Source: Polynucleobacter yangtzensis (GTDB lineage: Bacteria; Pseudomonadota; Gammaproteobacteria; Burkholderiales; Burkholderiaceae). Taken from it: a stretch of 64,000 bases of DNA. A program made the translations under genes and the position numbers. The DNA is taken from the NCBI RefSeq assembly GCF_001595965.1, contig NZ_LOJI01000003.1, positions 1 to 64,000 of the forward strand, in the 5' to 3' direction. The notes beneath the pieces were generated by a model. It was not told the DNA's origin. It saw only the letters and a list, made by a program, of their open reading frames with translations, and made no database searches. Numbering within the stretch: the stretch's first letter is position 1; each line of letters begins with the position of its first letter. Of this stretch, positions 1-9,882 are shown piece by piece.

Positions 1-30
1 CTTTGGTTTTGAAAACCAAAGGATTTTTAT
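1..30 (+). terminator. Possible terminator of an upstream plus-strand gene
   Basis: Positions 1-21 form a 10-bp perfect inverted repeat (ctttggtttt / aaaaccaaag) around one base, followed by a short T-run at 24-28. The stem is AT-rich, so it is a weak intrinsic terminator; the gene it would serve lies outside the window. Confidence 0.35.
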
Positions 31-77
31 AGCAACCATTTCACACTTCGTTGTTCCAAAGTACTTTTTGAGGGATT

Positions 78-106
78 AATAAGCGTTACTTTAAGTAACG
101 CTTATT
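78..106. repeat. Perfect 14-bp palindrome at the 3' end of dadA
   Basis: A 14-bp perfect inverted repeat with a single central base lies 8 bp beyond the dadA stop codon. It has no strong T-run on either strand, so it may be a weak terminator, an mRNA 3'-stabilising hairpin or a protein-binding palindrome. A related motif (shared core taaagtaacgct) recurs at about 6747-6772, just downstream of the tRNA-Ile gene. Confidence 0.5.
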
Positions 107-114
107 AGACTCAA

Positions 115-1374
115 TTAAGAAAACTTTAAGCTTGGCTCAGTCCCAGTCTTTAGGGTTTGCTCTCCGTACTGAATAACATCACCGATCATTTCAGCGGTAC
201 ACGCAGACAAGGTCCAACCCAAATGGCCATGGCCGGTGTTGTAATACACATTAGGCTTACTACCCCTACCAACTTTTGGCATCATAGTTGGCATCATCGG
301 ACGTAAGCCTGCCCATGGAACAACCGAGCGTGTACTGACTTCTGGGAAGCACTGATTAACCCAATCCACCAAGGGCTTGATACGATCAGAACGGATATCA
401 CGATTGATGCCATTGAACTCTGCCGTACCAGCAACGCGGAATCGATCTACACCAAGACGACTGGTAACTAGCTTGGTTTCATCATCTAAAAGGCTGACAT
501 TAGGAGCGCCCTCTTGGCTCGCTTTGTCGTTCAAATTGACAGTAATTGAATAGCCTTTAACTGGGTAGACATTAACGCGATCACCCAACTGAGAAGCAAG
601 GTCACGACTACCAACACCAGCACAAACTACGACATTATCAAAAACGAGCTGGCTAGCTTGCCCATCCTTGCTTAGCGTTAAGTTCACACGATTTCCATCA
701 GACTGAACAGAAAGAACTTCATGCTCATAAATGGTTTTAACACCCAAATTAGCTGCAGCTTCAGATAAGCCAAAAGTAAATTTATGAATATCTCCAGTCG
801 AATCACTCTCTGTGTAGTAACCGCCGTAATATTTACCGGCTAGAGTAGGCTCGATTTCTTTCATCTCTTGAGGTGTAACGGCAGTACGCCCTAGCCCGCC
901 TTCAGCAAGCATCTTAGAGACTTTGCCTGCATGCTCAAAGCCCGCCTGATCACGATAGATATGCAAGATACCTTCACGCTTTAAATCAAAATCAATACCC
1001 TCTTGCTTTGCCCAAGCAAATAGATGCTTTCTGGCTTCAATTGCCATATGCGAAGTTTTAACGGTATTACTCTTGTAATTCGGAATGGATGCAATGAACT
1101 CTGCAAACCATGAAAGCTTATGCCAGTCAGGCTTTAAGTTAATCAATAAAGGAGCATCCTTTTTAAATACCCACTTCATGCCCTTCATGATTGTTGACCA
1201 ATGATTCCAGACCTCTGCATTTGATGCAGAAAGCTGACCACCATTGGCAAAGGATGTTTCCATTCCAGCATAACGATGACGCTCAATGAGAGTGACATCA
1301 TAGCCACGCTTAGCCAAAACATAAGCAGTAGTCACACCAGTGATGCCGCCACCAATAATTACAAATGATTTCAT
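115..1374 (-). CDS. dadA: D-amino acid dehydrogenase (DadA-type FAD oxidoreductase)
   Basis: This encodes a FAD-dependent oxidoreductase of about 419 aa in the DadA/glycine oxidase family. Such enzymes oxidatively deaminate D-amino acids or small amino acids to oxo-acids and pass electrons to the respiratory chain. The N-terminus has a Rossmann motif GGGITG at residues 8-13, and the C-terminus has the GHGHLGW signature that closes the FAD site. I start at the Met directly before KSFVIIGGG; the open frame extends 15 codons further upstream, but those run into the leader. A tandem glycine riboswitch precedes the gene on the same strand, so glycine or a close relative is a likely substrate or signal. 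The exact substrate cannot be read from the sequence. Confidence 0.9.
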   Translation of the reverse strand: MKSFVIIGGGITGVTTAYVLAKRGYDVTLIERHRYAGMETSFANGGQLSASNAEVWNHWSTIMKGMKWVFKKDAPLLINLKPDWHKLSWFAEFIASIPNYKSNTVKTSHMAIEARKHLFAWAKQEGIDFDLKREGILHIYRDQAGFEHAGKVSKMLAEGGLGRTAVTPQEMKEIEPTLAGKYYGGYYTESDSTGDIHKFTFGLSEAAANLGVKTIYEHEVLSVQSDGNRVNLTLSKDGQASQLVFDNVVVCAGVGSRDLASQLGDRVNVYPVKGYSITVNLNDKASQEGAPNVSLLDDETKLVTSRLGVDRFRVAGTAEFNGINRDIRSDRIKPLVDWVNQCFPEVSTRSVVPWAGLRPMMPTMMPKVGRGSKPNVYYNTGHGHLGWTLSACTAEMIGDVIQYGEQTLKTGTEPSLKFS

Positions 1375-1384
1375 ATTGAGATCC

Positions 1385-1410
1385 AAAAAAACGTCAAGGG
1401 TTTCCCATTG
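1385..1410 (-). terminator. Terminator-like expression platform of the glycine riboswitch
   Basis: Between the second aptamer and dadA, the minus strand reads a short hairpin (CAATGGG, AAA, CCCTTG; 1395-1410) followed two bases later by seven T residues (1385-1391). This is the arrangement expected of a riboswitch-controlled intrinsic terminator. The stem is short with one bulge, so function is inferred. A GGA Shine-Dalgarno-like site follows just before the dadA ATG. Confidence 0.5.
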
Positions 1411-1424
1411 CAAATGCACAAGGG

Positions 1425-1751: not shown

Positions 1752-2408
1752 ATGAAACCAAACATCAAAATTGACTTCGTATCGGATATTGCCTGCCCTT
1801 GGTGTGCTGTTGGACTAGGAAATCTACAAAAAGGACTGGACCAACTGAAAGAAAAGGCGAATTTTGAGCTCCACTTTCGTCCCTTTGAACTCAATCCCAA
1901 TATGCCAAAAGGTGGTCAAGATACTATCGAGCACTTGACTCAAAAATATGGCATGAGTGAGGAGCAAGTTAAAGCTAATCAGGCGCAGATAAGAGCTAGA
2001 GCAATCGAGGCTGGCTTTAATTTTCATCCAGAAGGTCGCAAGCGAGTCTATAACACCTTTGACTGTCATCGACTTCTCGCCTGGGCTGCCAAGGAGTGTG
2101 GATTACCTAGTCAATTGGCGCTGAAGAGGGAATTACTTAAAACCTACTTTTGCCTAGCCGTTGATTTAGATGATCAAGACAACCTGATAGATGCGGTGAT
2201 GCGTGCCGGACTAGACAAATATCGAGCTCAAGAGATACTCAAGGGAAAAGAGTTTGCTGACGAAGTGCGTGAAGAAGAATCTACCTATACGGCCGCTGGA
2301 ATCAGTTCTGTTCCTTCGATCATTCTCAATAACCAATATCTTGTGCAGGGCGCACAACCCCCAGAGACTTTTGTTAGCAGCCTTGAACAGCTAATTCAGA
2401 AAAGCTAA
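1752..2408 (+). CDS. FrnE/DsbA-family thiol oxidoreductase
   Basis: The 218-aa product belongs to the FrnE branch of the DsbA/2-hydroxychromene-2-carboxylate isomerase thioredoxin-fold superfamily. The N-terminus carries the active-site motif CPWC at residues 15-18 (context DIACPWC). A SVPSIILNN stretch near residue 190 supplies the cis-proline loop. Length matches the family. There is no signal peptide, so it is probably a cytoplasmic disulfide oxidoreductase or isomerase, as described for FrnE. It is transcribed divergently from dadA with the riboswitch leader between. A TAGAAT hexamer ends only 6 bp before the ATG, so the mRNA may have almost no leader. The substrate is unknown. Confidence 0.85.
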   Translation: MKPNIKIDFVSDIACPWCAVGLGNLQKGLDQLKEKANFELHFRPFELNPNMPKGGQDTIEHLTQKYGMSEEQVKANQAQIRARAIEAGFNFHPEGRKRVYNTFDCHRLLAWAAKECGLPSQLALKRELLKTYFCLAVDLDDQDNLIDAVMRAGLDKYRAQEILKGKEFADEVREEESTYTAAGISSVPSIILNNQYLVQGAQPPETFVSSLEQLIQKS

Positions 2409-2410
2409 AC

Positions 2411-2563
2411 CTTCACTATTTCTGATGAGGGTCTGCTTTTCTGGTGAGGCCACTAGGACTTGAACCTGGAACCTGGAACCAAAGGATTCTGGTTTGTGTA
2501 GCTTTCACTACTCCTTGGACTATGCCTTCATCATATCGATCACTCGACTTAGATGGGTGCCGT
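2411..2563 (-). pseudogene. Decayed 3' part of a tRNA-Ile(CAU) gene with 3' part of its group I intron
   Basis: This stretch aligns over its whole length with 6776-6921, which holds the terminator, 3' exon and 3' portion of the group I intron of the intact tRNA-Ile(CAU). Shared blocks include tgatgaggg, ggacttgaacctgg, aaccaaaggatt, a long perfect block from ggactatgccttc through atcgat, and ctcgacttagatgggtgcc. The copy has acceptor-stem mutations and a small tandem duplication of cctggaa in the T-arm, and it lacks the 5' exon and the intron 5' half, so it cannot give a functional tRNA. It forms the left member of the direct repeat pair that bounds the accessory genes. Confidence 0.85.
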
Positions 2564-3259
2564 TGGTTTTAGGAAGAAATCCATTGCCAACGCAACCACT
2601 GGCGGCTCGATGTGGTGCGGGCCTCTGAATTCCAAGGAGGTTACGTCATAACCTGCGGCCTTAAGTTTGGCTACGTGAGGACGCGCACTAGTTTCAATTG
2701 GCAGTTGCTCGTCTTCCAAACCGTGGGCGATGAAGATGCGGGGTGTACCATTTTGCTGAAGGACTGACATGAAACCTGCAGAAAATGCAATCACGTGGCT
2801 AACGACATCGCCATTGGTCACGCCTGCTGACAGCGCATAGCTGCCTCCGTCTGAAAACCCAGCAAATCCCAAGTGGGATGGATTGATAGAAAAACGCGAC
2901 GCCACTTCGCGTAATGCTTTATCCAGCCGCTCTAGGTCTGGGCCGTTACCACCCACGACCAAGTCCCAAGTCGGAAACTGAGACTGCGGCAGCAGAAGCA
3001 AAAAGCCATGCTGACACGCATGATCGATCAAGAATGGCAGCACCTTGTCCGCGCTGCCACCAGCGCCATGAAACATCACGAGCAGAGGGGCTGGAACTCC
3101 AGACTGCAGGCCATCCGGCACGATCAATACAGCGTCGCGCTCGCTAGCAATACCCAGGTCGTGACGACCAGCGGGTAAGGCTTGCTTGTCGGGTATAGTG
3201 CCGGATCGAAAACTGAGCCGGCCCAGCAGCGAATCTCCCAGGAAAGACGTGTCAAACAT
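2549..3259 (-). CDS. Alpha/beta hydrolase (esterase/carboxylesterase-like), coupled to the AAA+ gene
   Basis: The 236-aa product is an alpha/beta hydrolase related to the phospholipase/carboxylesterase and PHB-depolymerase-like groups. Visible features are an oxyanion-type FHGAGGS motif (63-69), the nucleophile elbow GFSDGG with Ser136, and candidate Asp183 (HGLEDE) and His216 (GPHHIEPP). There is no obvious signal peptide, so it is probably cytosolic. The start chosen is the ATG inside the last codons of the AAA+ gene (8-bp overlap), preceded by GAGG at good spacing, which implies translational coupling. The last residues (TAPI) and the stop codon are read from the tRNA-intron relic, so the original C-terminus may have been lost at the island boundary. 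Base composition is visibly richer in G+C than the flanking genes. Substrate unknown. Confidence 0.78.
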   Translation of the reverse strand: MFDTSFLGDSLLGRLSFRSGTIPDKQALPAGRHDLGIASERDAVLIVPDGLQSGVPAPLLVMFHGAGGSADKVLPFLIDHACQHGFLLLLPQSQFPTWDLVVGGNGPDLERLDKALREVASRFSINPSHLGFAGFSDGGSYALSAGVTNGDVVSHVIAFSAGFMSVLQQNGTPRIFIAHGLEDEQLPIETSARPHVAKLKAAGYDVTSLEFRGPHHIEPPVVALAMDFFLKPTAPI

Positions 3260-4907
3260 TGCCATCCTCAAGGGGTTTACCGATGCTGCGGAAAGCCGCA
3301 CACTGAGCAAAGGCTTCCTCGCTAAGCAACAAATTCCTACCCTTGCAAAACTTGAGCGTCAGCTTGAGTAACTCCTTGATATCGCGGCCGCTGGCAGCTG
3401 CGTAGCTTATTACCAAGCGCTCAACTAGGTCGTCGGGTAGTTCGGTGTTGAACTGCTGCGCTAGCGATTTCCATAGTTGTTTCGCCCGCTCTTGTGTCGG
3501 TGTCTCAAACTGGATGATGGCGATGCAGCGCGACAAGACAGCGTCATCAATGTCGGCTACGCGGTTGGTGGTCATAAACAGTAAGCCGTTGAAGTACTCG
3601 AGGGTACGCAGGAACTCAGCCACGATGGCGTTGTGCTGCAGATCGTTGTCGCGGCGGCGAATATAGACGTCGGCCTCGTCGAGCAAGAGCACCGAGTCCC
3701 AGCGCGCAGCGCGCCGCAGGATTTTCGAAAGGTTGGCTTCCACTGAGCTTGCCGTCACGCCGAGTTGACCAGAATGTACGCGGTATAGTGGTTTCTGGAC
3801 GACCTCGGCATAGACCTCTGCTGTCAACGTCTTGCCTAGGCCAGGTGCGCCTTTGCACAGGATGGTTGTGCCGCCCGACTTACCCTCGACAATGTCCTCC
3901 ATTAGGAAGTTACGATCAGCTGTCAAGATATCAATCAACTCGCGATGAGCATGCGGCAGAACCAGCTTGTCACGCAATTCTGGTTTGTAACGATACGACT
4001 CAACATTTTGCACATGTACCCATACGCTGCGGTGGTAATCCAAGTGGAATAGGTGTAGATAGCAATGCTGGGGAATCCGTTCAAAACCCTCGCTGATACC
4101 GCTTCCGCGCCAGAAGCTTGCATCGGCGGTCGTATCAAAGTGGCGTTCTAGCAGCTCTTCGTCATTGACGCAGCGGGCCGTTGTGCCTGCCTGCAGCCGC
4201 ATGCATTCGAGTTGTGGACGAGGCCCTTCGCTGGACACCCAGACAGCGCCAGAAACAGTAAACTGCGCACCAAACTTCGGCTGCATCTGCATAAAACGCT
4301 TTAAGTGTGTCTCGTATTCGCTTTTGAATTCCGCACATTCTTTGAAGTAACCATAACCCGTCATCAATTCGGGAATCGTGCAATCCAGAATATCTTCGGC
4401 ATAAAAGGTGATGCTGTAGGTCATGCCAGTACGCCTTAGCCTCGGATCGGTAACCGGCCCGCGTTCTGCAGCCTGCAAGGTATTAGCCAGAAGGCCGATG
4501 ATGACGTAAGCTGCACTATCGACAGGCTGCACATAACGCATGGAATGGACCAGCCAGGGCAGCAACACACCATCCTTGCCGAGCTTATAGAGCCAGCCAT
4601 CGATCATGTCACGCGACAACCAAGCGATCAGACCGGGGATCAGATGCTCCAAGCTGGGGATTTTTCGGGCAGCCGGTGCGGCGTGGATATTGTCCAGCGC
4701 CAACATTTGGAACATCAGCTCACGCTCGTTGGCCGTACGGCACAGGTCGTAAAGTGTGTTAAGTGAGGTGGCGTCGAAAAGGTGGCTGGGCACCACACGT
4801 TTGCCTCGGGAAAGGCCGTACTCGCTCAGCCGCTTAGCAAGCAGTGAATCTTCATTGATCATTCCAAGTAGCGCATTGGCCAGGGTTTCTGGTATTTCGA
4901 ATTCCAT
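3252..4907 (-). CDS. AAA+ ATPase with long uncharacterised N-terminal region
   Basis: The 551-aa protein has a roughly 340-residue N-terminal region that I do not recognise and a C-terminal AAA+ module. In the module I see Walker A GAPGLGKT (353-360), Walker B LLLDEAD (407-413), sensor 1 TTN (446-448), an SR arginine-finger candidate at R460 and a sensor-2-like GRD at 507-509. The ATPase part resembles the large family of AAA ATPases common in filamentous fungi (core LTAE, then LLDEAD, then LRTLEYFNGLLF, then TTNRV) more than typical FtsH or ClpX proteins; this is from memory. It is not a protease, since no catalytic metal motif is seen. The start ATG has AAAGG five bases upstream, embedded in an 8-bp repeat. 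It is followed by the overlapping hydrolase gene and lies on a repeat-bounded island. Its role is unknown; remodelling of a partner is an inference. Confidence 0.8.
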   Translation of the reverse strand: MEFEIPETLANALLGMINEDSLLAKRLSEYGLSRGKRVVPSHLFDATSLNTLYDLCRTANERELMFQMLALDNIHAAPAARKIPSLEHLIPGLIAWLSRDMIDGWLYKLGKDGVLLPWLVHSMRYVQPVDSAAYVIIGLLANTLQAAERGPVTDPRLRRTGMTYSITFYAEDILDCTIPELMTGYGYFKECAEFKSEYETHLKRFMQMQPKFGAQFTVSGAVWVSSEGPRPQLECMRLQAGTTARCVNDEELLERHFDTTADASFWRGSGISEGFERIPQHCYLHLFHLDYHRSVWVHVQNVESYRYKPELRDKLVLPHAHRELIDILTADRNFLMEDIVEGKSGGTTILCKGAPGLGKTLTAEVYAEVVQKPLYRVHSGQLGVTASSVEANLSKILRRAARWDSVLLLDEADVYIRRRDNDLQHNAIVAEFLRTLEYFNGLLFMTTNRVADIDDAVLSRCIAIIQFETPTQERAKQLWKSLAQQFNTELPDDLVERLVISYAAASGRDIKELLKLTLKFCKGRNLLLSEEAFAQCAAFRSIGKPLEDGNV

Positions 4908-4912
4908 GAGTT

Positions 4913-4952
4913 CCTTTTACTCTTTTACTCTTTTACTCTTTTACTCTTTTAA
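4913..4952 (-). repeat. 8-bp tandem repeat in the leader of the AAA+ gene
   Basis: There are three perfect copies of tcttttac (4921-4944), flanked by one variant copy on each side (ccttttac and tcttttaa). In the sense of the AAA+ gene the unit is GTAAAAGA, and the last variant, GTAAAAGG, supplies the Shine-Dalgarno sequence five bases from the ATG. Short tandem repeats at this position can change copy number by slippage and so alter transcription or translation. Confidence 0.85.
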
Positions 4953-5164
4953 TAAATCATAGAAACCTAGGTCTGAAACATGCTTGACTACAGTCAATGC
5001 GAGCCATAATAGGGTCCATTTTGGGCGTGGTGTGCGCCCAAAGATGGCTTACGGCGGCAACTCCGGCTAAAGTGCCATCCCGTTTTTGACCTTTTCTTTG
5101 GTGAGTTGACTTCCCTGCATACGTTTGAACTTACACAGCGTCATCTAGCAGCTCATATCGCTTC
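4953..5164. other. Intergenic gap inside the island, no gene recognised
   Basis: This is the largest gene-free stretch inside the island. It holds a hairpin at 5021-5041 (ttgggcg / cgcccaa, 7-nt loop) without a clear T-run, so it may be a weak terminator for the thioesterase gene. On the plus strand a short open stretch ends at 5069 without a recognisable start; it may be a relic. I see no convincing promoter. Confidence 0.4.
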
Positions 5165-5581
5165 TCAACTCCGCTTGGCCCATGTTCGCTCTTCAAACTC
5201 CCTCTTATTAATGATGATCCTTTCATGACTCCCTTTGGATACTAATTCCGCGTCATCATAGGCTTCAACAGAGAAGATGAGCTTCTTGCCACGCACCTCA
5301 GTTAACTCAACCTTCGCCGTAACTTCTATACCGGGAGGAGTAGCTGCTTCATGCGTGACGCTAATAAAAGTACCAACTGCCTGCTCTTCGGGCCAATCTA
5401 GATGAGAAGCAATCGCCTTGACACAAGCCAACTCCAAAAACCCAACCAAAAAACCTGTGGCAAAAACTTTAGGCCTCACTGCTGCTTCTTTGGAACCTGG
5501 ATACATAGCAGGAACAGTTTGCGCATCAGTCACCATGAACTTGTATTCGTATTTAATGCCAGGTTTTAGGGAAGTCTTCAT
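5165..5581 (-). CDS. FlK-type hotdog-fold acyl-CoA thioesterase
   Basis: The 138-aa protein belongs to the fluoroacetyl-CoA thioesterase (FlK)-like hotdog family, whose members hydrolyse acyl-CoA thioesters in the cytosol. The FlK catalytic triad is recognisable by position: Thr42 in FATGF, Glu50 in FLELAC and His77 in SVTHEA (T42, E50 and H76 in FlK, from memory). The motif TPPG follows, as in the family, and the length is typical. Most members are not shown to act on fluoroacetyl-CoA, so I do not claim that substrate. It lies 21 bp downstream of the GlxA-type regulator on the same strand and probably forms an operon with it. Confidence 0.82.
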   Translation of the reverse strand: MKTSLKPGIKYEYKFMVTDAQTVPAMYPGSKEAAVRPKVFATGFLVGFLELACVKAIASHLDWPEEQAVGTFISVTHEAATPPGIEVTAKVELTEVRGKKLIFSVEAYDDAELVSKGSHERIIINKREFEERTWAKRS

Positions 5582-5602
5582 TGCAAACCTAACTCTAACA
5601 AT

Positions 5603-6589
5603 TTAATTCGATTCAATATCTTCATTTGAGGAGCGAAAATGCTCTCTATACTCCAGCGGAGTAATGCCCAACCTTCGGACAAATATTCTGCGAAGAGCCT
5701 CGGCGCTCTCTAAGCCACAACGCTGAGCTATATCCTTATATCCCATATCTGTTGACTCAAGATATCGCCGTGCAAAATCGATACGAGCATCATTTACATA
5801 GTTCATCGGAGTCATGCCGCATTCTTTCTTAAAAATACGAGTTAAATTTCTTGGACTCATATTTAAATGCTCGGAGATTGACTCTAAAGTATGACGAGCC
5901 TCGGGATTGCCAAGAATATAACTGTGGACAGATGCGACTACGGAATTTTCAGCAGCTTGAGATTCAAGCAATGGGCTAAATTGACTTTGCCCTCCAGATC
6001 TTCGCAAATACACAATCAAATATTTGGCTACATCAAGCGCCATCTTCTTATCAATATCTTCCTCAATAAAAAGGAGCGATAAATCTATACCAGCAGTTAC
6101 CCCAGCAGTCGTATAGATATGGCCATCTTTTACGAAAATACGATCTGGCTCGATAAGAGCACGTTTAAACATACTGGCTAATCGCGGGACATCCATCCAG
6201 TGAGTGGTGACTGTCTTGCCATTAATCATTCCTGCGGCACCTAATGCGAAGACCCCATTGCAAATGGCGCTGATTCTTCTGCACTCATACCCTTGTTTGA
6301 CAATCCAATCAATCACAGTAGAATCTTCAAGAAGATTAAAGATTCCAAGACCTCCAGGGATAATCAAAGTGTCAAAATGAGGGCATGGATCAAAAATCGT
6401 GCGATCAGGCGTTAAGGTAATTCCACTTGAAGACTGTACTGGACCCCTAGTTGTGCCAACAGTGAAAATTTCATACTCTGATTCTCCATTGCTCAGAACC
6501 TTAACCTCTCCAAAGGCATCGCAAGGACCAGCCAAATCAAGCAGTTGAAAGCGCGGAAATACGAGGATGCCAATAGTAATCTTACGCAT
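5603..6589 (-). CDS. GlxA-family transcriptional regulator (DJ-1/PfpI domain plus AraC HTH)
   Basis: The 328-aa protein has an N-terminal DJ-1/PfpI glutamine amidotransferase-like domain (about 1-190). It carries a nucleophile-elbow cysteine at Cys110 (SAICNGVF) and the conserved LDLAGPCDAF start. The C-terminal AraC/XylS helix-turn-helix domain (about 220-318) contains LTRIFKKECG and the second helix pair ending LGITPLEYRE. This architecture is that of GlxA-like activators, which usually control amino acid, betaine or stress genes; the DJ-1 domain acts as a sensor. It immediately precedes the thioesterase gene and may regulate it. Codon use is AT-leaning, like the core genome and unlike the AAA+/hydrolase pair, so this half of the island may have a different origin. 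Confidence 0.87.
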   Translation of the reverse strand: MRKITIGILVFPRFQLLDLAGPCDAFGEVKVLSNGESEYEIFTVGTTRGPVQSSSGITLTPDRTIFDPCPHFDTLIIPGGLGIFNLLEDSTVIDWIVKQGYECRRISAICNGVFALGAAGMINGKTVTTHWMDVPRLASMFKRALIEPDRIFVKDGHIYTTAGVTAGIDLSLLFIEEDIDKKMALDVAKYLIVYLRRSGGQSQFSPLLESQAAENSVVASVHSYILGNPEARHTLESISEHLNMSPRNLTRIFKKECGMTPMNYVNDARIDFARRYLESTDMGYKDIAQRCGLESAEALRRIFVRRLGITPLEYREHFRSSNEDIESN

Positions 6590-6763
6590 AGGAATAACAC
6601 TCTACACAGCAAGCTAATTAAGCGCCATGACGGAATTAAATGATGTCCACATATGAAAATATTGTGCCTTATTTACACTCTAATATGGCTTAAATTGTCT
6701 GAACGGTAAAAAATAGACATAAATGGTTGGCTCATAAGACAACCATTACTTAAAGTAACGCTC

Positions 6764-6797
6764 AAAAGACAAAACCCCCACCATTGCTGATGAGGGT
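6764..6797 (-). terminator. Terminator of the tRNA-Ile(CAU) gene
   Basis: Downstream of the tRNA, the minus strand reads CCCTCATCA, GCAA, TGGTGGGGG, a 9-bp stem with wobble pairs, then TTTTGTCTTTT. It starts about 10 bp after the CCA end. A degenerate version of the same hairpin lies beside the pseudo-tRNA at 2411-2432. The other part of the 6590-6806 gap holds the presumed glxA-type gene promoter region and the palindrome-like motif at 6747-6772. Confidence 0.6.
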
Positions 6798-6806
6798 TTG
6801 CTTTTC

Positions 6807-7095
6807 TGGTGGGCCCACCAGGACTTGAACCTGGGACCAAAGGATTCCGGTTTGTGTTAGTTTCCTAACTCCCTGGACTATGCCTTCATCATATCGATTG
6901 CTCGACTTAGATGGGTGCCGTCTAGTCTCTACACGTTCAAAGTATTTCTACTAAGCTTCGCTCGGCGTTAGCTTGTGCAGCTTTTGGCTACCTTTAGCTT
7001 TCTCCGAATTTGACACCATCCCATATACAGTTTCCACGTATATGGCACAACTTACGCCATGAGTCCTCTGCTCTAACCAACTGAGCTATGGGCCC
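6807..7095 (-). tRNA. tRNA-Ile(CAU), interrupted by a group I intron
   Basis: Removing the intron gives a 77-nt tRNA with encoded CCA: 5' exon 7095-7059, 3' exon 6846-6807. The acceptor stem GGGCCCA/TGGGCCC, D-arm TAGCTCAGTTGGTTAGAGC, anticodon loop CTCATAA with anticodon CAT, and T-loop GGTTCAAGTCC are all intact. The sequence is of the tRNA-Ile2 type, like E. coli ileX, where C34 is converted to lysidine to read AUA; it is neither initiator nor elongator tRNA-Met. As the only copy seen here it would need intron removal to function. Fragments of the same gene flank it at 2411-2563 and 7257-7293. Confidence 0.93.
6847..7058 (-). ncRNA. Self-splicing group I intron in the tRNA-Ile(CAU) anticodon loop
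   Basis: The 212-nt insert sits directly after the anticodon T and before AATCC, and ends in the expected terminal G (CCGG). Core elements match, from memory, the Azoarcus tRNA-Ile(CAU) intron: GGGATGGTGTCAAATTCGG, GAAA, AACGCCGAGC, AAGCTT, TGTAGAGACTAGACGGC (P3/P7 strand), ACCCATCTAAG, GAAGGCATAGTCCAGG (P7' strand), and ACACAAACCGG at the 3' end. It carries no homing endonuclease gene. The P2-like stem (CCATATAC, GTATATGG) is AT-rich compared with Azoarcus but still pairs. The insertion site is the same as in that intron, so the family and boundaries are clear. Activity is inferred. Confidence 0.93.
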
Positions 7096-7256
7096 TAAAA
7101 CTACTCTTTTTAACCTGATAAAACTGGGCTAAAACTACTGCTTTACAACTTGCCTCGGTGTGTAAGCGGTGTGTAAGCAAACTTATCCACCCTTACCACG
7201 CTAAGACCCTTATGTTTACTAGGTTCTTAGCAAAATACAACGAGGTTATCTCTCTT
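7096..7256. other. Spacer with direct repeats, possible integrase attachment-site relic
   Basis: This spacer between the intact tRNA and the extra 5' exon copy has no gene. It holds an 11-bp tandem direct repeat (ggtgtgtaagc at 7157-7167 and 7168-7178) and a 10-bp direct repeat taaaactact (7096-7105 and 7130-7139). Short direct repeats beside a duplicated tRNA segment are what arm-type integrase sites look like. No integrase gene is present, so this is only suggestive. The rpoD terminator is also not obvious here. Confidence 0.4.
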
Positions 7257-7293
7257 ATGAGTCCTCTGCTCTAACCAACTGAGCTATGGGCCC
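7257..7293 (-). repeat. Duplicate of the tRNA-Ile(CAU) 5' exon
   Basis: These 37 bases are identical to the 5' exon of the intact tRNA (7059-7095). The copy runs from the acceptor-stem 5' strand through the anticodon CAT and stops at the splice site. The next two bases read AA, as in an intronless tRNA-Ile, and then homology ends. It lies 12 bp beyond the rpoD stop codon. It cannot form a tRNA and is best read as a relic of integration or recombination at the tRNA anticodon loop. Confidence 0.9.
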
Positions 7294-7305: not shown

Positions 7306-9882
7306 TCAATCTTCTTCGAGGAAGGTCTTGAGTTTGTCGCTACGGCTTGGATGACGCATCTTTCTCAGAGCCTTAGCTTCAATCTGACGAATACGCTCAC
7401 GAGTAACGTCAAACTGTTTGCCCACTTCTTCGAGAGTGTGGTCTGTGCTCATCTCAACACCAAAGCGCATACGCAATACTTTTGCTTCTCGAGGTGTTAA
7501 TGAATCGAGAACGTCTTTCACAACATCGCGCATAGAGTCATGCAATGCAGCTTCAGCTGGAGCCAAAGTATTACCGTCTTCAATGAAGTCGCCTAAATGA
7601 GAATCTTCATCGTCACCAATTGGTGTCTCCATGGAGATAGGCTCTTTAGCAATCTTCATGATCTTGCGGATCTTGTCTTCAGGAATCTCCATCTTGAGCG
7701 CCAAGGTTGCAGCATCTGGCTCATGACCAGTTTCTTGCAAAATTTGACGGCTGATACGGTTCATCTTATTGATCGTCTCAATCATGTGAACTGGGATACG
7801 GATCGTACGTGCCTGGTCAGCAATCGAACGGGTAATCGCCTGACGAATCCACCATGTTGCATAAGTCGAGAACTTATAACCACGACGGTATTCAAACTTA
7901 TCTACCGCCTTCATCAAGCCAATATTACCTTCTTGAATCAAATCCAAGAACTGCAAGCCACGGTTGGTGTATTTCTTAGCAATCGAGATTACCAAACGTA
8001 AGTTAGCTACAGTCATCTCACGTTTTGCTTCGCGGGCACGCTTCTCGCCAGCGATCATCTGCTTGTTAACTTCTTTTAATTCTGGCAACGGAATAACGAC
8101 ATTCTTCTGAATATCGATCAACTTCTGTTGTAGTTCTTGAATAGCTGGAACGTTACGTTGCAAGAGTGCGCTGTATGGCTTGTTCTCTTTGAGCAACTTC
8201 TCAGTCCAAGTCAAATTCATAGACATCTTAGGGAAGTCTTTTAATACTTCACCACGATTAACCCCCACTTTGTCTACCAACAGGCTCACAATACCGCGCT
8301 CAAGCTTCCATACTTGGTCTACTTGTGAACGCATGGTGTCGCATAACTTCTCAACACTCTTCGCTGTTAAGCGGAAACCAAGTAATTCAGCACGAATTGC
8401 ATCTTGTGCCTTCACATATGCTGGACAGTTGTAACCATCTTTATCAAATGCACGGCGCATTTTGTCAGCTTGTGTACGAACGATTGCAAACTTCTCTAAA
8501 GAGATTTGCTTTAATTCTTCTAATTGCTTAGCGTTTGCTGTTGCAGCACCACCGCCGCCACCGCCAGCATCATCTTCTTCACCCTCTTCGCCTTCTTCGG
8601 CATCCGGATCAACTTCTGGCTCTTCAGGTCCGAGCTTAATATCTTCTGCATTTGGATCAACCAAACCATCCACAAACTGGTCGATCTCCATCTCGCCACT
8701 AGCGATCTTATCAACGTTGCTCAGAATCTCAGCAATCGTTACAGGGCAAGCAGCCAAAGCCATCACCATGTCTTTGAGACCAGCTTCGATCTTCTTCGCA
8801 ATCACGATCTCGCCTTCGCGAGTCAACAAGTCAACCGTACCCATTTCACGCATATACATACGTACTGGATCGGTAGTGCGTCCGAATTCTGAATCAACAG
8901 TAGATAAAGCAGCTTCAGCTTCTTCTTCAGCCTCTTCTTCAGAAGCTGCAGCAGCTGTATTGTCAGAAAGGATTAATGTTTCTGCATCAGGGGCTTGTTC
9001 GTAAACAGAAATGCCGATGTCATTGAGCAAGCTGATCAAAGTTTCCAATGCATCCGCATCGGACAACTCATCAGACATCACGTCATTCATCTCGCCATGG
9101 GTTAAGTAACCCTTGGACATACCCATCTTGATCAAAGTCTTCAAGCGAGCACGGCGTAACTCTTGTTGTTCTTCAGTTCCTAACTGTTGTGCTGCAAATT
9201 CTTTTAAGAGTGCCTTCTCTTTCGCCTTACGCTCACGCGCTTTTTGACGATCCGTTAATACTGGTTCCACAGCTTCAGCAGGTGCATCCGCTTTCGCTTT
9301 GCGACCGCGCTTCTTCTCTTCTTCAACAACTACAGGCGCCTCTAGTTCTGCGGTCTTGGCTTTTTTGCCTTTGACTTCTTTTGCATCTTTAGTTTCTTTT
9401 GCTGCTTTTGTTTCTTTAACTGGCTCAACCTTAGGTGCTGCTACTGCTTTACCTTTTTTCGCTGGCTCAACCTTGACTTCTGCTTTGGCAGATTTCGCGG
9501 GAGCTTTTACAACTGGTTTTGCTGCAGCCTTTACTGGTTTTGCTGGTGCTTTTGCAACAGCCTTCACTGGTTTAGCAGGCGCCTTAGAAACTGCTTTTAC
9601 TGGCTTAGCAGGAGCTTTTGCTTTTGGAGCTGGTTTAGCAGCAGCCCTTACTGGCTTAGCAGGTGTTTTTGCTTTTGGGGCCGGCTTAGCTGGTGCCTTT
9701 GCTTTGGCCACAGGTTTAGCCGCTGGTTTAGCAGCAGCCTTTACTGGCTTAGCAGGTGTTTTTGCTTTTGGAGCTGGCTTAGCTGGCGCCTTTGCTTTAG
9801 CAGCTGGTTTTGCGGCAGCCTTTACTGGCTTAGCTGGAGCTTTCGCTTTTGGAGCTGGTTTTTTGGTCTTGGTATTCGGCAT
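7306..9882 (-). CDS. rpoD: RNA polymerase primary sigma factor RpoD (sigma-70) with Lys/Ala/Pro-rich N-terminal tail
   Basis: The 858-aa protein is the housekeeping sigma factor. Region 1.1 begins around residue 210. A conserved acidic insert ([17 protein letters not shown]) lies in the non-conserved region. Region 2 carries [17 protein letters not shown] (promoter melting and -10 recognition), and region 4 carries [20 protein letters not shown] near the C-terminus. Residues 8-133 form a histone H1-like tail with nine APAKPV/A-type hexapeptides, which adds over 200 residues to an E. coli-type sigma-70. It is the last gene of the rpsU-yqeY-dnaG-rpoD cluster but has a promoter-like site of its own upstream. 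No strong Shine-Dalgarno precedes the chosen ATG, though no later Met lies before the tail ends. Confidence 0.96.
9484..9861 (-). repeat. Internal tandem repeats encoding the AKP-rich tail of RpoD
   Basis: Degenerate repeats of about 30-60 bp encode [14 protein letters not shown]-like units. At DNA level the blocks of type gctggcttagcaggtgttttt and gccttt(a/g)c recur many times. Copy number is likely to vary between strains through slippage or unequal recombination. The opposite strand is open by composition only (mirror Ala/Gly/Phe codons) and is not a gene. Confidence 0.85.

Follow-up and report, generated by a model that had tools for sequence, protein, structure and literature searches.

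The 64,000-nucleotide (nt) stretch of Polynucleobacter yangtzensis DNA analysed here (the window; contig NZ_LOJI01000003.1, assembly GCF_001595965.1) carries beside rpoD a transfer RNA (tRNA) gene with anticodon CAU that is interrupted by a group I intron, followed by a run of accessory genes. This raises the question of where that run begins and ends, and what brought it there. An earlier note on the sequence had taken it for a single insertion of four genes bounded by direct repeats at 2411–2563 and 6776–6921, with half an intron as duplicated attachment (att) sequence. We arrive at a different arrangement, in which a family of islands would integrate in the anticodon loop of the host tRNA-Ile2 gene, destroy that gene and supply an intron-bearing replacement for it, a reading to which we give a probability of roughly 0.84.

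A duplication that the earlier note missed lies at rpoD and concerns the 5′ half of the tRNA (7257–7293 versus 7059–7095). All features at this end are on the minus strand. The rpoD gene (7306..9882; PRK05658, 892.8 bits), the host anchor immediately upstream of the tRNA-Ile2 site, ends at 7306 and is followed after a 12-nt gap by GGGCCC...GGACTCAT, the first 37 nt of a CAU tRNA (7293–7257). This lone 5′ half of the host gene stops in the anticodon loop (CTCAT/AA) and continues with AAGAGAGATAACC, with no remaining tRNA sequence; the true right end of the island, its rpoD-side junction, is here, at 7256/7257. A right-end segment of 161 nt follows (7096..7256), containing at about 7157–7178 a tandem pair, GCTTACACACC GCTTACACACC, that represents possible candidate sites for an integrase or accessory protein. 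Beyond it stands a complete tRNA-Ile2(CAU), copy A, whose 5′ exon (7059..7095) matches the lone half at 37/37 positions, whose 212-nt intron (6847..7058) begins directly after the anticodon, and whose 3′ exon (6807..6846) encodes CCA. A second complete intron tRNA, copy B, is found elsewhere in the same genome. ARAGORN detects no tRNA in the unspliced copy A region and returns a CAT tRNA when the exons of either copy are joined.

The intron itself matches RF00028 at 6854–7063 (53.2 bits against a gathering score of 50); both copies score above the cutoff, with lengths of 212 and 253 nt, and both end in G. Across an alignment of 35 of 113 distinct introns, some from the genus and some from beyond it, both sides are changed in 28 of 51 predicted pairs, individual helices to be read with care given that RNAalifold cannot draw the group I core pseudoknot. 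The copy A intron is predicted to be spliced.

To place the locus among relatives, 151 Polynucleobacter genomes were searched with the tRNA region, giving a match in 147; 58 with few contigs were chosen, rpoD was located in all 58, and the rpoD regions of 40 of them, closed or near-closed and preferably with strong matches, were compared (counts out of 41 add the window's own genome). An intact intronless tRNA stands beside rpoD in 14 of the 40, and none of these 14 genes holds an intron. A lone 5′ half, a right end and a complete intron tRNA 161–216 nt further on are present in 21, including one (G039) that has this layout behind a separate 5.5-kb insert. Two further genomes are split with an intronless replacement (G013 and G072), two have an intron tRNA directly at rpoD (G022 and G105), and one has another insertion that restores the 5′ half (G026). 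Split sites thus number 23 against 14 intact ones, and cargo varies among the relatives, which is the outcome that the earlier note had proposed to look for; its broader suggestion, recombination or integration at a tRNA, possibly more than once, is borne out by a tRNA-associated island hot spot used repeatedly. Genus-wide the lone half occurs in 40 of 151 genomes, as found by a pattern for two right-end types that misses others. The insertion in G026 (L059) and the first insert in G039 (L039) belong to another type, about 5.5–5.8 kb long, which has its own short recombinase and restores the 5′ half.

Repeats collapsed or misjoined in draft assemblies might produce such a layout, and the window's own assembly does consist of 42 contigs, with a break 98 nt inside the left-end region of the island. 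The same layout recurs in many single-contig genomes (for example, G010, G015, G030, G075 and G144), and we regard an assembly artefact as next to impossible.

The missing half of the host gene can be located in most of the occupied genomes. Of the 23 split genomes, 19 have an intronless 3′ half at a distance of 3–73 kb, directly after a recurring island end (...CTCAT/AATCC). When lone and displaced halves were rejoined by script a tRNA resulted in 19/19 cases, 17 taken from the 19 Polynucleobacter genomes in which a displaced half was located and two from outside the genus (G459 and G335). In most Polynucleobacter the two tRNAs are too similar to distinguish, and three lineages are informative. 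In G031 the lone half forms 7/7 acceptor pairs with the displaced half versus 6/7 with the 3′ half of the intron tRNA; the corresponding values are 7/7 versus 6/7 in G459 and 6/7 versus 4/7 in G335. In all three, pair 7–66 forms with the displaced half and not with the intron tRNA, and the intron tRNA pairs with itself at 7/7. A single mismatch in the lone half of G335, at pair 1, is what a dead half would be expected to show. The flank after the displaced half of G031 and that after the intact tRNA of G026 gave no BLASTN match at 1e-10 over the stretches compared.

These pairings bear on an alternative history, in which the host tRNA held the intron first and was then entered, at the border of 5′ exon and intron, by a 5′-half-restoring element that later shrank to about 200 nt. 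Such insertions exist, as the cases in G026 and G039 demonstrate, and the Islander database tabulates 159 islands with 5′ fragments (PMC4383910). An element inserted at that border is nevertheless hard to reconcile with lone halves that run into AA and island sequence and never into an intron, with intronless 3′ halves that sit on an island end at the far side in 19 of 23 genomes and that, in three lineages, match the lone half by pairing, or with spacers of 161–216 nt that recur between lone half and complete tRNA and lie behind a left end in 6/6 internal copies. We judge this history very improbable.

The internal copies speak to what the island carries. Six complete intron tRNAs are internal (one each in G079, G110 and G131, two in G076, and copy B in the window's genome), and all six follow a junction of left end and right end with the same core and the usual spacer, indicating that right end and tRNA travel as part of the island. 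In one attP type the core is surrounded by an inverted repeat, GGGCTTCT...AGAAGCCC. Right-end similarity does not track rpoD similarity (Spearman 0.10 over 231 non-independent pairs; identities in the comparison of right ends, introns and rpoD exclude gap columns). A short tyrosine recombinase (PF00589, open frames of 194–226 amino acids) is present in 13 of the 23 split loci, over the sequence retrieved for each, excluding the one in the first insert of G039, and chains of left ends occur in G075, G081 and G013.

ARAGORN labels any CAT tRNA 'Met', so the identity of the split gene needs separate consideration. The acceptor stem of the intron tRNA carries C4:G69 and C5:G68, which are tRNA-Ile2 identity elements of Escherichia coli TilS, while a Burkholderia enzyme relies on other elements (PMC12514573). 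A pattern search of the window's genome retrieves two further CAU genes, one resembling elongator Met (acceptor GGCGAAT with G4 and A5, loop ATCATAAT) and the other resembling the initiator (GGGCTCATAACCC). Given the E. coli TilS elements and the Met-like appearance of the other two genes, the split and intron-bearing gene is likely, if not proven, to be tRNA-Ile2 and not tRNA-Met. A 31-nt pattern across the anticodon arm, allowing up to three mismatches, finds an intronless copy in 18 of the 41 genomes and none in the other 23, namely the window's own genome, 20 of the 21 split-with-intron genomes and the two with an intron tRNA at rpoD. If the drafts are complete, those 23 must splice; the replacement tRNA would then presumably be essential for reading AUA codons.

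The left end of the island lies outside the window. Its left-end region starts at 1..105 (minus strand) and runs on into another contig of the assembly (C40), as far as the core TCTGCTCTCAT about 107 nt beyond base 1, which is the true left end. The last 98 nt of C40 are exactly the first 98 nt of the window, and the closed genome G075 aligns continuously across the join, from window position 6846 to 121 nt into C40 (94% over 6975 nt). Copy B is near the end of the same contig (C40:305071–305407), and upstream of it TCTGCTCTCAT is joined directly to AATCTAATTAAG, the left end of one island to the right end of a second. The window would cover one island from its rpoD side (lone half, right end and copy A) through its cargo, dadA among it, to where its left end starts, with a second island bearing copy B following on C40. 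Two perfect palindromes occupy the left-end region, CTTTGGTTTTGAAAACCAAAG (window 1–21) and AGCGTTACTTTAAGTAACGCT (window 82–103); the former is seen again in other left ends, and it is there that the match of the dadA segment to G079 and G090 stops.

Between these ends, cargo consists of a DJ-1/PfpI plus AraC-type regulator (FtrA/GlxA-like; 5603..6589), a FlK-like hotdog thioesterase (5165..5581), a cassette of an AAA+ ATPase and an alpha/beta hydrolase (2559..5038), and the D-amino acid dehydrogenase gene dadA (115..1419), all on the minus strand, plus a DsbA-like thioredoxin-fold protein on the plus strand (1752..2408). The four same-strand genes that the earlier note had placed between its repeats are the first four coding sequences of this series, hydrolase and ATPase counted separately. 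It had further described the surroundings as housekeeping, which holds for rpoD and fails for dadA: at E <= 1e-100 the latter is found in just 6 of 58 relatives, and is on this distribution accessory cargo. The same count disposes of dadA and the DsbA-like gene as fixed flanks. A glycine riboswitch aptamer at 1527–1615, upstream of dadA, moves with it as one segment in G079 and G090.

G075 has the same cargo as a 6.9-kb unit, in the order regulator, thioesterase, AAA+ ATPase, hydrolase, relic (the left repeat, discussed below), DsbA-like protein, dadA and left end. There the unit is 57–65 kb from rpoD and begins at a displaced 3′ half, without an intron tRNA; in the window the 3′ exon of copy A stands in that position, a difference for which recombination between 3′ halves would account.

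The diverged repeat that prompted the boundary model is real and, as had been described, spans the terminator, the 3′ exon and a 3′ portion of the intron. Positions 2400–2563 correspond to 6765–6921 (ungapped, 98 nt at 88% and 74 nt at 84%; with gaps, 83% over 157 nt). The left copy (2407..2563, minus strand) is however a relic of another intron tRNA, internal to the island; it has diverged, as supposed, yet is not simply a decayed twin of copy A, since its P9 hairpin resembles that of copy B, although its whole-length distance to the two is about equal (83% to copy A over 157 nt, 85% to copy B over 122 nt). It is joined to the end of the AAA+/hydrolase cassette at ACGGC. This cassette (ATPase 3252–4907, hydrolase 2549–3310) occurs in the regions of 6 of the 40 relatives (7 of 41 with our own) at 91–97% protein identity and with nearly constant ends. 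In G010, G081 and G039 it ends ...ACAGC/GCAGCTGTAA, without a relic, and in the window ...ACGGC/ACCCATCTAA, of which ACGGCACCC belongs to the intron, so that the last codons and stop of the hydrolase come from the intron. Because the cassette ends at the same place without a relic in those three genomes, the relic reads as an illegitimate-type fusion of cassette to intron fragment at the five shared letters ACGGC. As a functional aside, the ATPase has weak IetA/TRIP13-like matches (IetA, E 2.6e-16) and its gene overlaps that of the hydrolase; the two are possibly a defence pair.

Direct repeats of the right kind do flank the four-gene block, which favours 2411 and 6776 as insertion boundaries. 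The cargo, with the DsbA-like gene and dadA, nevertheless extends past the left copy to the true end beyond the window, the relic of G075 is internal to the same unit, and the relic starts at letters where the cassette stops without it in three relatives; a single insertion between these repeats therefore seems highly unlikely. The unusual feature is that the island brings along an entire intron-bearing tRNA gene, and not, as had been thought, that half an intron stands at a boundary. Starts of intron fragments that cluster at query positions 366–391 had also been considered as a second attachment site within the intron; they reflect conserved blocks and, at least here and in G075, the fusion relic, and the candidate was rejected.

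We propose, then, that a family of integrative islands uses the rpoD-proximal tRNA-Ile2(CAU) gene as its attachment site. Strand exchange by a tyrosine recombinase in the anticodon loop, at the shared core CTCATAA, would split the intronless host gene so that its 5′ half remains at rpoD and its 3′ half, with a terminator, moves to the far end of the island. No fragment in attP would repair the break; a complete tRNA-Ile2, nearly always with an intron at the same loop, would instead be carried 161–216 nt inside the right end. This replacement would be transcribed from the rpoD side or from its own promoter and the intron spliced out, leaving the cell able to read AUA codons. With the core half-sites separated by more than 200 nt of intron, the replacement should be no target for the integrase, and any island arriving later would have the displaced 3′ half as its entry site, in agreement with the left-end chains of G075, G081 and G013. 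The four-gene block would be cargo common to this island and that of G075, and the relic at 2407–2563 would date from the fusion of the AAA+/hydrolase cassette to an intron fragment.

The distribution of the intron beyond the genus bears on its part in this scheme. A search of 399 genomes from the order matched it in 15, of which 12 lie outside the genus; 8 of these 12 give long matches and 2 (G459 and G335) have a lone half. A scan of named genomes returned 111 stretches (organism labels cover 80) with 114 junctions of intron and 3′ exon, 86 of them with a readable 5′ exon. A lone 5′ half lies 140–219 nt upstream in 34 of these 86 intron tRNAs, many from Polynucleobacter, and the combination extends to Limnohabitans, Sterolibacterium, Massilia, Methylopumilus and Gulbenkiania. 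A contig of a metagenome-assembled genome (MAG) labelled Akkermansia muciniphila (L148) also has a lone half and an intron tRNA, with a Limnohabitans-type acceptor, and is probably misbinned.

Several observations weigh against our proposal. The intronless replacements of G013 and G072 mean that the intron is not obligatory, and G131, a split-with-intron genome, has an intronless copy elsewhere. No displaced half was found in 40–60 kb of each of G079, G110, G131 and G124, nor in the window's own draft genome with 20 kb of C40, where the sole further 3′ fragment is decayed and 190 kb away on C40. Junctions of left end and 3′ half also occur in G129 (L047) and G004 (L049), which keep an intact tRNA at rpoD; this left end thus seems to be common to classical islands as well. 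The join of C40 to the window's contig depends on the 98-nt overlap together with the continuous G075 alignment. The loci as fetched contain no integrase in 10 of 23 split cases, and neither our own island nor 20 kb of C40 contains a PF00589 protein. Intron identity tracks rpoD identity moderately (0.44, over the same 231 non-independent pairs). Finally, 48 of the 86 intron tRNAs have no lone half: 13 of these show the CTCATAA core at the spacing expected, in most cases following an island left end, and 15 stand directly behind rpoD (L242 with a decayed half), indicating that the intron also lives in ordinary resident genes.

Azoarcus-type group I introns occur in betaproteobacterial tRNA-Ile(CAU), and the island might carry a replacement tRNA in which the intron is a mere passenger of that gene, with no role in the island's life. 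The 15 resident genes and the two intronless replacements agree with this. A passenger would be less expected to occupy 21 of 23 rpoD-side and 6 of 6 internal replacements and 0 of 14 intact rpoD-side genes, or to interrupt the very 7-nt loop that serves as island core; we rate its chances as falling a little short of even. That the ribozyme acts as an integration shield, the intron removing the integrase target from the sole functional tRNA copy, is an idea we hold tentatively, at somewhat less than even odds. Were it correct, attP would be freed from encoding tRNA sequence, the replacement would be safe from the next island, newcomers would be steered to the displaced 3′ half, from which the tandem arrays seen here would result, and the host would be addicted to the island for reading AUA.

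Whole-gene replacement instead of restoration would be a second solution to the host-killing problem of tRNA-targeting islands, and might explain the persistence of group I introns in the anticodon loops of bacterial tRNAs. On this view, loss of the island is predicted to be lethal unless excision is precise, and such predictions can be tested in cultivable Polynucleobacter strains. Since ARAGORN is blind to the unspliced gene, island searches and maps based on tRNA finders would probably miss this class. Among the titles and abstract openings that our searches listed, none described an island with a replacement intron tRNA; the literature searched lacks most subscription journals, which makes this weak evidence of novelty.

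Among known systems, the introns resemble Azoarcus-type tRNA-Ile(CAU) introns in gene, position after CAU, length (about 200–260 nt) and family (RF00028), and differ in that the intron gene here forms part of the island; at least 27 such copies were counted, 21 beside rpoD and 6 in internal positions. IStrons likewise combine a ribozyme with a DNA mobile element, splicing making the insertion tolerable; their intron surrounds the mobile gene and is spliced from the interrupted host gene (PMC4227781). Copies A and B are too short to hold the transposase that an IStron has within its intron, the intron here lies in an extra copy of the target gene, and the host gene that was interrupted stays broken. 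Tycheposons, known from Prochlorococcus and Methylophilaceae, are likewise tRNA-bordered cargo islands in streamlined freshwater bacteria; they have a tyrosine recombinase, as do 13 of the 23 split loci here, and one in Methylopumilus begins at 'tRNA-met(cat)'. They are set apart by description, the portion of that account drawn on here mentioning neither an intron nor a split target (PMC10872708). A Methylopumilus MAG in our scan (L206) has rpoD, a lone half and an intron tRNA, and its site may be the start site of the published tycheposon. Islander-class tRNA islands, integrated by tyrosine integrases, share site-specific insertion in a tRNA gene, the anticodon-loop subsite, a displaced tRNA fragment at the far end and tandem arrays; under the Islander principle, attP carries a fragment of the target so that integration restores it (PMC4383910). 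In the islands described here the target stays broken, the lone half runs into island sequence, and a whole gene, usually with its intron, is supplied 161–216 nt inside.

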